From a virus, in IMG/VR virus record IMGVR_UViG_3300027754_000186, positions 1-42,220 of that record: a stretch of 42,220 nt of DNA. One strand, 5' to 3'. Position 1 is the stretch's first letter; each line of letters starts with the position of its first letter. The notes beneath the pieces are model-generated. The model was given only the letters and a program-made list of their open reading frames with translations. It was not told the DNA's origin and searched no databases. Position numbers and translations under genes: made by a program. This document shows positions 22,871 to 39,978 of this stretch, piece by piece.

Positions 22871-23227
22871 TTAGAAACACAGCACCGTGACGTTTTCCGC
22901 CGCGATACGTACCGCACTTTTTGTATCTCCACCTTCGCTCCACTTCTCAACTTTGACCCGGCCTTTGACGCGCACCAACGCGCCATTACCGATATCTAGA
23001 ATCTTTTCTGCGACCTGACCCCATGACGACAACTCGAACTCATCATAGTCTTCATGGAACCTTCCATCAGTGTCCGTCCAATGACGAGCAATCGAGATGG
23101 CTCGACGAACCATCAATGCTCCTGTCTTCGTTTCAGTTTTACGACTGATTGCTCGCATCTCGCCAATCAAGTAAACCACGTTCTCGGTTGGTGTCGCGGT
23201 TGTTTCGCTGGTCTTTGATTCGCTCAT
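22871..23227 (-). CDS. ssb: Single-stranded DNA-binding protein
   Basis: 118 residues with an OB-fold SSB pattern: NVVYLIGEMRAISRKTETKT, then VRRAISIARHWTDTDG, FELSSWGQVAEKI and ALVRVKGRVKVEKWSE. These match the strands of bacterial-type SSBs (the W/G-QxAE segment is typical). The acidic C-terminal tip for protein recruitment is absent; it ends AAENVTVLCF. The N-terminal ~14 residues are Ser/Thr-rich and probably disordered. The ATG overlaps the helicase stop in an ATGA. Confidence 0.85.
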   Translation of the reverse strand: MSESKTSETTATPTENVVYLIGEMRAISRKTETKTGALMVRRAISIARHWTDTDGRFHEDYDEFELSSWGQVAEKILDIGNGALVRVKGRVKVEKWSEGGDTKSAVRIAAENVTVLCF

Positions 23228-25347
23228 TTTGTAATAAATATACAGCCAAGTTCACGGTAGCTCGTCATCCGCTTTCTAGCATGGAACGCTCCGATAGGAT
23301 GGAACTTGTCCGAAAAGTCCACGATTGTCGCACAGTTTTTTGTTTCTGTTTTACGAAGCGCGCGGCTCGCCCGCTGGATGGTCTTCTGCGATGACCGACC
23401 GCCGCTCACCATGATGAGCAGTTCGACGTTGGGCAGATCCAATCCTTCGTCGGCCAATGAGGTGGCGATCATGGTCCTGAGATTGCCGGCCTTGAACTCT
23501 TCCATGTACGAGCGCCTGTCCTTCTTCCCAATCTTGGAATGCACCAAGCGAGAGCTTGGGATGCTTTCCTCGTACTGCTCTCCAAGCGTGATACGCGGGA
23601 TCAGGATGAGCGTCTGCATGTCCAGATGGTCCAGAGCATACTGCACCGCATACCGGTTCCTCTGATTGTTCTGGCAGATACCGATGTCCACCAGCGATTC
23701 CCAAGCGCACATCTTCTTCAGGTCTTCATCGCTGATCCGCATGTACCTGCGGCGAGCCTGGAACAGCCGGTCGATGTTGTCGTCAATCTTGGTCTGGATG
23801 TTCAGGTCGGTGGCGTCGCTGATCTCCAGGTAGGCGTCGGCCAATGAATCTCCGATGTCGCTTCGAGAGATCTCGTAGATTGAATCCCGGAACAACGACC
23901 GGGTGACCTTGTTCCGATCATCATCATCGCTCCAAGGGGTCGCATCGAATCCGTAGCGAAGTCCGTTGCACGACTCGATGATGCGCTTCCAACTGACGGC
24001 GGGGCTGTGCTTGCAGTTATGAACTAAGACTCCATTTGCAAAGTAGTTTTCATTTCCTTCAACCGAGAAATTGTAGACATGATCTTGTCCACGCATTGCT
24101 GAGTTCCATGAATCACTTCCGCGTTCGTGAACCTCAACACGCACCACCCTAGAAGATTGAGTGTGTATGTTTTCTTTTTGTCCGCAGCCTTCCTGATTGC
24201 AGAATTGTGAGAAGGTCCGTCCACCTCTACCGCCAGCTTCACGCCGAGTTGAGCTAAATCTACTTTGTAGCAGTTTGGAACATCCATCATCCCACTTGGT
24301 TTTGTTGGAATTGAATGCTCCATTTGAAGCCCACAAATAGACGCCAGCATTGATTGAGGAATGGTTGCTCCCCTTCCGTTTCCGCCTTGAATTTTCGGCC
24401 TGTGTCCTATCCGCCTCAATGTATTCGATACCTTCTCTCTCGTTTCGAGTGAAACAGTACGAGCCTTCATCCATTTTGATATTTTGTCCCCGCTCTTCTT
24501 GTTTGTTGTAGACATTGTTTCTGAACTCATCTTGGAAACCATTAAGTCCCGGCACGCAATTGAACAGTAGGCTCTCCCCCTTTTTATTGCTTCCAGACTC
24601 TTGTATGCAGGCTTTTTTCCCATGCAGATAACTGGAACTTTGCACCACGCACAATTTGTATGCACTCTCTTCCTTCTCTGGAATCTTGAAACCGATTTGC
24701 ATTGGTCGCAAACGGGTTTTCTTGTTTCCGAAAAATGTCCTTTTCTGTCCGTTGTTAATCCGCACATCTTGCATTCCACGTTCATAAGGTGGAATGGTAG
24801 ACACGACATCTGCGCTCGTCAAGGATGCCGCTGGAACATATTTTTCACCATCCCAGAACGGATGGCCTGAAGTGCAAGTGACTGGTCCGTTTTCGGTCCA
24901 AACTGTCACCATTGTGTTGGGAGCGGGAGTCTTGAAAACATCTAAAACACGGCATTTTTCAATGGTTTTTGAGTTGTGGTTATAGGAGTCAACCATGTCT
25001 CCAGCCCTGATTTCGCTGATATCTTTGCTTCCTATTTTAACCCAAGCTGGAAAGCATTCGTCAACGATGAGCAGGTTCTTTTTGCTGAAGTCCACCGACT
25101 CATGTGGACACCGGATATCCACAACTCCATCAGGAATCCCCGCAACGCTTAGTGATACACGTCCCTGCTGACACGTCTCGATCGTTGGAGCGGTCCAGCC
25201 AAACAGCCAATCGGGATTCAGCTTGTGATAATGCTTGATGATTGATGCCGCTATCCAGGTTTTTCCGCTACCGGCAGGAGCTATGATCAAACCATCGGAC
25301 TTGGTGGCCCACTCAACTGCTTTCTTTTGGTACTCTCTCAGATTCAT
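23224..25347 (-). CDS. DEAD/DEAH-type (superfamily 2) helicase precursor containing an intein
   Basis: 707 residues before splicing, 360 after. Host-protein motifs: Q-motif-like NLREYQKKAVEW, Walker A APAGSGKTW (23-31), motif II DE-CKH split by the intein, GFDATPW (motif III region), IATSLADEGLDLP (motif V region) and QRASRALRK (motif VI). It resembles phage SF2 helicases that remodel forks or recombination intermediates. I start at the ATG at 25347; an in-frame ATG at 25377 is also open. The stop overlaps the SSB start. If the intein is removed, the rejoined sequence reads VDECKHSPA, restoring motif II exactly. Confidence 0.88.
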   Translation of the reverse strand: MNLREYQKKAVEWATKSDGLIIAPAGSGKTWIAASIIKHYHKLNPDWLFGWTAPTIETCQQGRVSLSVAGIPDGVVDIRCPHESVDFSKKNLLIVDECFPAWVKIGSKDISEIRAGDMVDSYNHNSKTIEKCRVLDVFKTPAPNTMVTVWTENGPVTCTSGHPFWDGEKYVPAASLTSADVVSTIPPYERGMQDVRINNGQKRTFFGNKKTRLRPMQIGFKIPEKEESAYKLCVVQSSSYLHGKKACIQESGSNKKGESLLFNCVPGLNGFQDEFRNNVYNKQEERGQNIKMDEGSYCFTRNEREGIEYIEADRTQAENSRRKRKGSNHSSINAGVYLWASNGAFNSNKTKWDDGCSKLLQSRFSSTRREAGGRGGRTFSQFCNQEGCGQKENIHTQSSRVVRVEVHERGSDSWNSAMRGQDHVYNFSVEGNENYFANGVLVHNCKHSPAVSWKRIIESCNGLRYGFDATPWSDDDDRNKVTRSLFRDSIYEISRSDIGDSLADAYLEISDATDLNIQTKIDDNIDRLFQARRRYMRISDEDLKKMCAWESLVDIGICQNNQRNRYAVQYALDHLDMQTLILIPRITLGEQYEESIPSSRLVHSKIGKKDRRSYMEEFKAGNLRTMIATSLADEGLDLPNVELLIMVSGGRSSQKTIQRASRALRKTETKNCATIVDFSDKFHPIGAFHARKRMTSYRELGCIFITK
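24016..25056 (-). mobile_element. Intein (347 residues) inside helicase motif II
   Basis: The intein starts at a Cys (CFPAWVKIGSKDI, block A) directly after the helicase DE and ends VHN before the next Cys (block G), with GNENYFANGVLVHN as the block F/G region and GPVTCTSGHPFWD as block B (Thr, His). All splicing residues are present: Cys1, block B TxxH-like, terminal His-Asn and Cys+1. The splicing segments lie in about the first 85 and last 45 residues. The middle (about 215 residues) is hydrophilic and low in hydrophobic content because it is an alternate-frame reading of the nuclease gene. Splicing looks feasible by sequence but is unproven. Confidence 0.88.
24024..24809 (-). CDS. Homing endonuclease gene nested in the intein in another frame
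   Basis: 261 residues, same strand as the helicase but shifted by one base relative to it. Features in order: two pairs of zinc-binding cysteines (ECKMC, CDQC), a second cysteine cluster (CAWC, YCSIAC), a NUMOD3-like helix-turn (SLETREKVSNTLRRIGHRPK), and a Vsr-like/EDxHD nuclease core (VKLAVEVDGPSHNS with E, D, H, then a later D and LLGWCVLRFTNAEV). This resembles the EDxHD homing nucleases. A TGA lies four codons before the ATG at 24809, so translation must start here or at 24785 by internal initiation; no strong Shine-Dalgarno is visible. The stop (TAG) is 8 bases before the intein end. Confidence 0.82.
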   Translation of the reverse strand: MSCLPFHLMNVECKMCGLTTDRKGHFSETRKPVCDQCKSVSRFQRRKRVHTNCAWCKVPVICMGKKPAYKSLEAIKRGRAYCSIACRDLMVSKMSSETMSTTNKKSGDKISKWMKARTVSLETREKVSNTLRRIGHRPKIQGGNGRGATIPQSMLASICGLQMEHSIPTKPSGMMDVPNCYKVDLAQLGVKLAVEVDGPSHNSAIRKAADKKKTYTLNLLGWCVLRFTNAEVIHGTQQCVDKIMSTISRLKEMKTTLQMES

Positions 25348-25400
25348 AATTTTATGATATTGAATCCCGGTCGCCATTCGAGACGACCGGGATGTTTATA

Positions 25401-38010: not shown

Positions 38011-38360
38011 GAATTCTTTTCTATGGGATGGAATGAACGGGGATGGAACTGGCACGCCCCCCCTTTGGGGGTGGGGTCGTTTACATAGCCCCCCTCAAAA
38101 ATTTTCCACCCTTTTCGACTCTCTAAACATTTATCATTATTCTTCAATAATGCAGTAGGTGATATTTTTATTGACAGGATAATGGATTCTAATCATCCAT
38201 CCATCCATCGACCTTAATGATTGCATACGATTGGTCATCGGATGCGAATGTCTAAGCGGAAATGACAGCCCGCGTTTGGTGGTGGTGGGAAATATCGGTC
38301 CATTGGATGATGGATGGATGGCCCACTAAAAAACGGTAAACGCAGGAAACAGTTTTCATT
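38011..38360. promoter_or_regulatory. 350-base gene-free leader before the capsid gene
   Basis: A C7-TTT-G5 hairpin (38057-38071) follows the terS stop and may terminate. At 38169-38180 is TATTGACAGGAT, a -35-like motif without a good -10. ATCC runs at 38192-38211 and their complement at 38305-38321 can pair over 13 bases. An AG-rich AGGAAAC precedes the capsid ATG. The rest shows nothing recognisable. Confidence 0.45.
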
Positions 38361-39599
38361 ATGGCTTGTCCCAATGTGTTTAATGCCTTTGCGGTGGCTA
38401 CGGAGTCGCTTGCACAGGATGTCTATAAGCGCGCGTCGTATCGTTCGATGTGGCTCAACCTCATCGAGCGCGGCGAGTATCCGCAGGGCACTGGTTTGAT
38501 CCAGACCTCGTTCACCACGACCAGCATCGAGCCGACTGCGGCTGAGACTTGGGCGGCAATCACGCTTGCTGATGGTGCTGGTACCAATGCTTGCGATGTC
38601 ACGTACAACGACGTTCCAGTTGGTTACAACGCGGTCACCTGGGGGCCTGAGCGTTTCGCGCTCAAGGGTCCGTTGCTGTGTAAGGACGACCTGACTTTCG
38701 ACCATCGTGTCGAGGCGTTCCTGCGTGTGTATCTTGAGAAGCTGTCCATCCGCGCGCAGCGTTCTTGGGAGACTCGGTATCAGAATATCTTCGCGAAGTA
38801 TGCCATCAAGGCGATTGCGGATTCGAGCTTCACGCAGACTGAAACGATTCCTGCCGGCGTGAACGAGTTCCCGTGGATTGATGGTGTTAGCTCGGGTCAG
38901 GCATTGAATCAGTCCACGTCGGAGTTGACCCAGGAGATGCTGGATGTGGCGGCGGCGACGCTCATCCGCAATGGCGCGACGAATCCTGATAGTTCTGGGT
39001 TCATCTCGTACAGCAGCGATGGTCCTGTGTTCCCGTTGTACATCGGGTTGGAGGCGTCGCAGCGCATCGCGCAGAACAATCCTGCGTTCCGTTCCGACCT
39101 CAACATCGCGGATACCGGATCTGGCGAAGGATCGACGTTGCTGAAGCGCATCGGTGCGAACCGGGTCATCAAGAACTTCCGGCATGTGCCGAATCTGTTC
39201 CCGCCCCGGTTCAGCTATTCCGGTGGCAAGTACACGCTCGTCCAGCCGTTCACTAGTGCGAGCGGCACGAAGGGTACTGTGTTCAGTGTCAATCCGACCT
39301 GGACGACTGCTGCGTACGAAGGTGCGTTCATCGTCACTCCGTACGTGTTCAAGAGTCACATCGTGCGGCCTGTGAACCGAGTCGGTGACTTGGCTTGGAT
39401 GCCGACCAACTACATGGGCGAGTGGCAGTGGGTGACCGGTGCGTACAAGCTCAGTGTTGATTGCGCTGACCCGCTCGACAAGAAGGGCCAGCATTACGCG
39501 GAGTTCATGCACGCTCCTGAGCCGATCTTCACGAACCAGGGCATGACGATCATCTTCCGTCGTTGCACAGGCGCGCTGACCCAGATCATCTGCTCGTAA
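38361..39599 (+). CDS. Major capsid protein (probable)
   Basis: 412 residues, the size of a HK97-type major capsid protein. It starts MACPNVFNAFAVATESLAQD; a long helix follows (VEAFLRVYLEKLSIRAQRSW, the likely spine helix), then beta-rich segments including YIGLEASQRIAQNNPAFRSD. Many Gly/Thr/Val strands and a compact C-terminus ending LTQIICS fit a coat protein. Supporting context: it stands alone after the small terminase with its own leader and a strong terminator, implying high expression. No scaffold or protease is recognised next to it. Confidence 0.7.
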   Translation: MACPNVFNAFAVATESLAQDVYKRASYRSMWLNLIERGEYPQGTGLIQTSFTTTSIEPTAAETWAAITLADGAGTNACDVTYNDVPVGYNAVTWGPERFALKGPLLCKDDLTFDHRVEAFLRVYLEKLSIRAQRSWETRYQNIFAKYAIKAIADSSFTQTETIPAGVNEFPWIDGVSSGQALNQSTSELTQEMLDVAAATLIRNGATNPDSSGFISYSSDGPVFPLYIGLEASQRIAQNNPAFRSDLNIADTGSGEGSTLLKRIGANRVIKNFRHVPNLFPPRFSYSGGKYTLVQPFTSASGTKGTVFSVNPTWTTAAYEGAFIVTPYVFKSHIVRPVNRVGDLAWMPTNYMGEWQWVTGAYKLSVDCADPLDKKGQHYAEFMHAPEPIFTNQGMTIIFRRCTGALTQIICS

Positions 39600-39624
39600 T
39601 CGGAACGGTATTGTTTGACACAGC

Positions 39625-39658
39625 CCATCATTGGCCGAAAGGCTGGTGGTGGGTTTTT
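39625..39658 (+). terminator. Rho-independent terminator after the capsid gene
   Basis: CCATCATTGGCC pairs over 12 positions (four of them G-U) with GGCTGGTGGTGG around a GAAA tetraloop, followed by GTTTTT. It lies 26 bases after the capsid stop and before the next gene, so it probably trims readthrough and sets the capsid:fibre ratio. Confidence 0.85.
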
Positions 39659-39696
39659 CGTATTGACAAGATATTGCATGAAGCAATGCTTCGTTC

Positions 39697-39978
39697 ATGC
39701 CGAATTTTATTCTTCCGAAGGGTGTCGAGGTTCCCGAGAACCTGAAGGAGGGCGAGAAGTTTCAGACGATGGCGACCATCGTGTTGAAGAAGAACGGCAA
39801 GGCGATGTTGGTGGAGGTGGATGGCCAACCTCTTGCCGGTTACGAATCCAATGAGAGCGAAGCTGAAGGTGAAGGCAAGATGAAGGCGCATGGAGCGGAG
39901 GAGGGTGGTGAAGCGGCTCATGGAAAACAGGGATTCATTGCCGAGGTGATGCAGCGTGGTCGTGGTCCGATGGCCTGA
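39697..39978 (+). CDS. Small acidic virion-operon protein
   Basis: 93 residues: MPNFILPKGVEVPENLKEGE, then KFQTMATIVLKKNGKAMLVE and a Glu/Gly/Ala-rich region ending RGRGPMA. A short beta domain and a disordered acidic tail could be a head decoration, head-completion or assembly protein. Not recognised. It begins after the terminator and a second TATTGACA-like motif (39661-39672). Confidence 0.5.
   Translation: MPNFILPKGVEVPENLKEGEKFQTMATIVLKKNGKAMLVEVDGQPLAGYESNESEAEGEGKMKAHGAEEGGEAAHGKQGFIAEVMQRGRGPMA

Follow-up and report, generated by a model that had tools for sequence, protein, structure and literature searches.

Fractured genes, reportedly described by Dassa et al. 2009, are said to be split inteins with an intervening gene for a Vsr-like EDxHD homing endonuclease. 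PMC12350094 gives Dassa et al. 2009 as its reference for fractured genes. Another type is represented by the ShiLan domain and the Pacc40 insertion, in which an out-of-frame HNH endonuclease resides in phage methylase genes (Arsenault, Gosselin, Gogarten 2025, PMC11855218). The ShiLan element has neither a splicing domain nor a detectable ribosome-binding site (PMC11855218). Here we describe a helicase gene in the IMG/VR virus record IMGVR_UViG_3300027754_000186, the whole of which (42,220 bases) is called the window below. This gene is very probably interrupted by a mobile intein, inside which a homing endonuclease gene is nested out of frame.

Two further works should be mentioned. PMC11855218 cites a 2025 preprint (Gosselin et al., with "Non-Canonical Architecture" in its title) and Gorbalenya 1998, Non-canonical inteins, for overlapping reading frames. 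Both may be prior art with a similar layout, and they are the main risk to novelty. Our literature search, whose reach ended short of these two, yielded no account of a complete intein harbouring an endonuclease nested out of frame; the only near precedents were the ShiLan papers.

Organization of the Intein and the Nested Nuclease

The minus-strand positions 23224–25377 constitute a single unbroken frame, which matches both SF2 helicases and intein splicing. The intein is positioned between LLIVDE and CKHSP, corresponding to the helicase motif II. The features are as follows, with scores of the predicted local distance difference test (pLDDT) from the structure model.

23224..25377, minus strand: host open reading frame (ORF) of 717 codons, SF2 helicase (ResIII/Helicase_C) by domain matches, interrupted by the intein
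25057..25377, minus strand: N-extein of the helicase, last residues LLIVDE (motif II / Walker B)
24016..25056, minus strand: intein of 347 residues, Cys1 to Asn347, between DE and CKH, supported by the empty site in intein-less relatives
24784..25056, minus strand: folded N-terminal splicing half, residues 1–91, pLDDT block means 92–98
24175..24783, minus strand: intein linker, residues 92–294, predicted disordered (pLDDT <50), encoding the greater part of the nuclease in its +1 frame and showing the codon-position signature of the nuclease frame
24016..24174, minus strand: folded C-terminal splicing half, residues 295–347, pLDDT ~95, overlapping the last ~49 nuclease codons, both frames constrained
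23224..24015, minus strand: C-extein of the helicase, first residues CKHSP, with Cys as the +1 nucleophile
24024..24809, minus strand: nested nuclease ORF of 261 codons, shifted by +1 relative to the helicase on the same strand, with a zinc-finger-like CxxC/CxxxC pair and a DUF559 (Vsr-like) domain
24024..24785, minus strand: nuclease from the conserved start, 253 codons, beginning within intein residue 91, its ATG kept in all nine members of the group to which the window belongs (the window group)
24069..24272, minus strand: DUF559 nuclease domain, residues 180–247, with D184, E195, D197, H201 and D210

The original prediction, made from the letters of the window, stated that the helicase frame stays open through an intact nuclease gene in another frame. 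The 717 and 261 codons, in +1 relation on the same strand, agree with it, and the nuclease stop codon lies exactly 8 bases short of the intein end as stated. The length of 261 residues is correct for the open frame, but members of the window group share the second ATG, at 24785 (253 aa), as their conserved start, and not the one at 24809. The ATG at 24785 is at the very end of the folded N-terminal half, and the nuclease gene therefore occupies the usual insertion point of an endonuclease. Overlap with the folded intein is limited to the last ~49 nuclease codons, instead of the ~20 first proposed, because the C-terminal part of the intein folds from residue 295. In nested loci, the nuclease stops are separated from the intein end by one of a few fixed lengths (8, 11, 20, 23, 44, and 50 bases). 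It looks as if +1 stops in the conserved C-terminal codons of the intein supply them.

All residues characteristic of a class 1 intein are present: Cys1, the TxxH motif as T-S-G-H65, His346-Asn347, and Cys+1. Among 51 inteins compared, C1, H65, and N347 are invariant and H346 is nearly so. AlphaFold2 predicts both ends of the intein with confidence, and the 203-residue middle at pLDDT <50. The Foldseek matches of this model are inteins and bacterial intein-like (BIL) domains with probability 1.0, indicating a HINT fold. Both splicing halves are under purifying selection. Judging from these features, the window intein would undergo protein splicing. A different reading is that the insertion no longer splices and is tolerated in the helicase, as proposed for the ShiLan element. 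Phages do have out-of-frame endonuclease insertions lacking splicing domains (PMC11855218), and splicing at the window locus is itself deduced. Nevertheless, the invariant splicing residues, the selection on the two halves and the predicted HINT fold make this reading very improbable. Besides, the insertion is inside motif II, where a retained segment should abolish the ATPase activity.

The 261-residue nuclease matches DUF559 of Pfam (7.6e-12). Six residues, D184, E195, D197, G198, H201, and D210, are invariant in 57 sequences of the nuclease family, and all are present in the window. The intact catalytic residues and the intact splicing residues were both correctly recognized in the original prediction. 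Cysteine pairs (C53/C56 and C82/C86) are located N-terminal to the catalytic domain. The structure model of the nuclease has a mean pLDDT of 87, and its top PDB match in Foldseek is 3r3p, the catalytic domain of I-Bth0305I (E 3e-3, probability 1.0). The third match is 3hrl, a DUF559-type protein. A sequence-profile search of PDB chains also matched 3hrl, but not I-Bth0305I (3r3p). DUF559, 3r3p, and 3hrl together indicate a Vsr-like catalytic fold.

Selection on Both Reading Frames

The numbers of expected stops were obtained by synonymous codon shuffling of the nuclease. For the window nuclease, the shuffled sequences contain 14.8 host-frame stops on average, and zero was never reached in 2000 shuffles. 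Over 58 clusters, no host-frame stop was observed against 546 expected, although this set had been chosen for an open host frame. A second scan, made without conditioning on the host frame, gave 0 against 379 expected. Ordinary chromosomal DUF559 genes (n = 47) served as a control; their 539 stops, compared with 564 expected, show no depletion, and depletion is also absent from the split and free-standing relatives of the nuclease. The third reading frame of the nested loci is not depleted either, being slightly above the shuffles (895 vs. 817, and 673 vs. 624 in the second scan). The controls without depletion indicate that the avoidance of stops is tied to residence in an intein that is not split.

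The codon-position signature was compared among nine ungapped elements of the window group, and it switches along their length. In the intein-only part, the differences per site are 0.151, 0.091, and 0.318 for host codon positions 1, 2, and 3. They are 0.317, 0.104, and 0.086 in the linker, where host position 1 corresponds to nuclease position 3. At the nuclease end over the last intein blocks, they are 0.109, 0.042, and 0.119. In the linker, no change created a host-frame stop, against ~31 expected, and amino-acid changes in the host frame are frequent.

Crude omega values of the nuclease are 0.08 for the window group, 0.09 for three disjoint sister pairs, 0.03 for the V. lentus group, and 0.07 for the V. 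crassostreae pair; the sister pairs are few and the pooled pairs are non-independent. Comparison of synonymous and nonsynonymous changes in both frames, a check suggested with the original prediction, therefore yields a nuclease omega of ~0.03–0.09 beside a stop-free intein frame. Both frames are selected, the nuclease frame through protein conservation, and the intein frame through the absence of stops and the conserved ends. Together with the relatives described below, this supports the earlier proposal that two proteins share one stretch of DNA.

Decayed endonucleases are common in inteins. The nuclease frame could be such a relic, with an endonuclease no longer expressed and only the intein frame now selected, and the expression of the nuclease is indeed deduced. 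We regard a relic as highly unlikely, given the low omega among close relatives, the nuclease-type pattern of codon positions in the linker and the catalytic residues invariant in 57 sequences.

The linker in the intein frame appears to be selected mainly against stops and otherwise to drift freely, with some residual constraint possible. This supports the original prediction that the middle of the intein is just the other frame read through. Instead, the linker peptide might have a selected function of its own, so that the overlap would be functional along its whole length. When only changes synonymous in the nuclease are counted, the host-frame omega has values of 0.58 (pooled pairs) and 0.29 (V. 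lentus group), as a functional linker would give. However, it exceeds 1 in three disjoint sister pairs, and changes silent in both frames are so few that omega is unstable. The linker is predicted to be disordered, and between the window and a relative, L078, the amino-acid identity is 0.41 in the host frame against 0.71 in the nuclease. A functional linker is considered unlikely.

Proposed Translation of the Nuclease

The first ATGs of nested nucleases are enriched in Shine-Dalgarno sequences. Their median pairing energy is -3.85 kcal/mol, compared with -1.9 kcal/mol for other out-of-frame ATGs in the same host genes (p = 8e-6). Values at or below -4 kcal/mol are seen in 47% of nested starts and 18% of other out-of-frame ATGs, and the corresponding proportion for the host genes' own starts is 42%. 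These statistics support, for the family, the internal initiation assumed in the original prediction; support is weak for the window, where the start at 24809 has a Shine-Dalgarno of -2.2 kcal/mol.

Programmed +1 ribosomal frameshifting could also make the nuclease, as a fusion to the N-terminal parts of the helicase and the intein. Such a mechanism would be consistent with a nuclease frame that is always +1, and with the weak Shine-Dalgarno in the window. It is disfavoured by the 18 of 41 second-scan loci with a nuclease-frame stop at most 5 codons upstream of the first ATG, which would confine the shift to a tiny window. All members of the window group have an ATG just ahead of the first CxxC, and the Shine-Dalgarno enrichment matches that of the host genes' own starts. 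We therefore consider frameshifting improbable.

Distribution of Related Elements

Scans for close relatives in viral and genome contigs with the nuclease alone gave no match, as did a DNA-level search of phages and a plasmid search for relatives. Relatives were gathered by profile-based scans of IMG/VR and GTDB genomes, and the loci were classified automatically. Among 114 distinct nuclease loci, 99 are nested out of frame. All of them are +1, while none is +2 or in frame. The second scan contributed 41 distinct new loci, every one of which (41/41) is nested at +1. The phyla with loci include Chloroflexota, Elusimicrobiota, Cyanobacteriota, Myxococcota, Bacillota, and Verrucomicrobiota. The host proteins include ResIII/DEAD helicases, SNF2 proteins, a RecQ-like protein, and DNA polymerase III clamp-loader subunits. 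The residues DE of Walker B / motif II precede nearly all identified intein starts.

Two tblastn searches, one with the nuclease and the other with the intein frame, matched the same isolate phages (37 Vibrio, 2 Corynebacterium, and 1 Pseudomonas record). The intein frame additionally matched 4 Campylobacter phages. In all 11 phage records fetched, the host helicase ORF is unbroken through the element and the nuclease is at +1. These records are annotated with one long helicase, hypothetical or "coil containing" protein, and the nuclease is unannotated.

A rival explanation is an assembly or sequencing error, with the nuclease truly in frame and paired indels mimicking the out-of-frame layout. 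Nothing speaks for it beyond the general caution over metagenome contigs. The same +1 relation is present in isolate phages from different sequencing groups and in 99 of 114 loci, with none in frame; both frames are stop-free, and the ends of each are conserved. A sequencing frameshift is ruled out by this recurrence, and the probability left for any such error is negligible.

Scanning from the intein side with an alignment of the N-terminal blocks of the window group resulted in 13 matches. All of them belong to the same nested group, and the vicinity of the window thus yielded no sibling with the intein alone. Neither of the two results named beforehand as contrary evidence was found. Instead of an indel that puts the nuclease in frame with the intein, about 100 distinct loci share one frame relation, and instead of a disrupted nuclease beside an intact intein, the inteins nearest to the window carry an intact nuclease frame.

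L155 (2476–5757) has a much longer intein (~500 residues) with a 475-codon segment in the nuclease frame, and ends in VVSN instead of VHN. The host ORFs of L096 (2314–6825), L108, L133, and L147 seem to hold a second insertion, in the Walker A region (e.g., GDFTVTHN/CGKT, the slash marking the junction), and these helicases may thus contain two inteins.

As for the rest of the window, it contains genes for a terminase large subunit, a primase, a Holliday junction resolvase, and a baseplate protein. Two long ORFs on opposite strands, 38235–39698 on the minus strand (487 aa) and 38361–39599 on the plus strand (412 aa), overlap almost completely.

Empty Sites and Probable Homing

None of 65 related helicase loci in IMG/VR has an intein over the matched gene, and a recognizable empty site is seen in 63 of them. 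The host protein is contiguous there, as expected for the host of a class 1 intein. The closest empty sites differ by 2–3 mismatches in 30 bases. In view of the patchy distribution and these empty sites, the nuclease probably cuts the empty site to drive homing.

The helicase mRNA would be read in two frames. The frame 0 product would consist of helicase-N, intein-N, a disordered linker of ~200 residues, intein-C, and helicase-C. The intein could fold from both ends and excise itself, restoring the helicase. Translation in the +1 frame would begin at the internal ATG where the folded N-terminal half ends, and would produce a separate zinc-finger/Vsr-like nuclease. This nuclease would cleave helicase genes that lack the intein, within the sequence coding for motif II (Walker B), and repair would then copy the whole intein in.

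Some points weigh against this explanation. The Foldseek E-values of the nuclease are modest, omega comes from few pairs, the start at 24809 is weak and no obvious Shine-Dalgarno site is seen upstream of the ATG at 24785.

Split and Free-Standing Relatives

Some relatives show a split layout. Extein-N and intein-N are followed by the overlapping nuclease gene, and then by intein-C and extein-C in a new ORF. This layout was read by eye in L118 (3235–5454), L122, and L140, and by script in L117; L116 is a probable case with the C part visible. In each of the split loci, stops appear in the frame equivalent to the host frame, beginning at nuclease codon 33 or 34. These loci constitute one clade with support 100 in the nuclease tree. 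Four nucleases (L104, L107, L113, and L134) are free-standing, directly upstream of an intein-less SF2 helicase and slightly overlapping its start. They branch within the nested diversity. A nested main state, from which the split and free-standing forms are derived, would fit the tree, whose root is uncertain and whose deep forks are in many cases weak.

A broader proposal can be put forward tentatively, as quite possible but short of probable. Out-of-frame nesting could be the standard architecture of a large and ancient intein family, which homes into genes for many P-loop ATPases (SF2/SNF2/RecQ-like helicases and clamp-loader subunits) at the Walker B / motif II codons, in phages and many bacterial phyla. 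It could also be the intermediate to fractured genes, once trans-splicing lifts the ban on stops in the linker. Split inteins, which have wide use in biotechnology, could thus have arisen by a concrete route.

The relatives of this single nuclease, some nested and others split or free-standing, serve as internal controls for a natural, deeply conserved overlapping gene pair. Because these controls are clean, the pair can be used to calibrate methods for detecting dual coding. Annotation of one frame per locus misses a group of homing endonucleases, as the isolate records examined illustrate.

Comparison with Known Systems

The element resembles ShiLan in several respects: a phage gene harbours a gene for a homing-type endonuclease, which is read from the same strand in a different frame, the frame of the host gene remains open, and the distribution is patchy. 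Unlike ShiLan, where an HNH nuclease occurs without a splicing domain, it has a complete HINT intein, a Vsr-like DUF559 nuclease, and Shine-Dalgarno enrichment. Its host genes are varied, and its hosts extend far beyond those of actinophages.

Fractured genes are similar in that intein halves flank a separate gene for a Vsr-like homing endonuclease, and the relatives L117, L118, L122, and L140 share this layout. The host gene is in two ORFs in L118, L122, and L140, but not in the window. Here, as in the 99 nested loci, the intein is unsplit, one ORF runs through the nuclease gene, and it is only in such loci that stops are avoided. The link of the nuclease to I-Bth0305I is by fold and not by sequence profile.

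With canonical inteins, the element shares the HINT halves, the endonuclease at the usual insertion point between them, mobility, and patchiness. The difference is that the endonuclease is neither in frame (0 of 114 loci) nor part of the intein protein. Out-of-frame nesting could be considered as a third way for an intein to carry a homing enzyme, beside in-frame fusion and the split gene.
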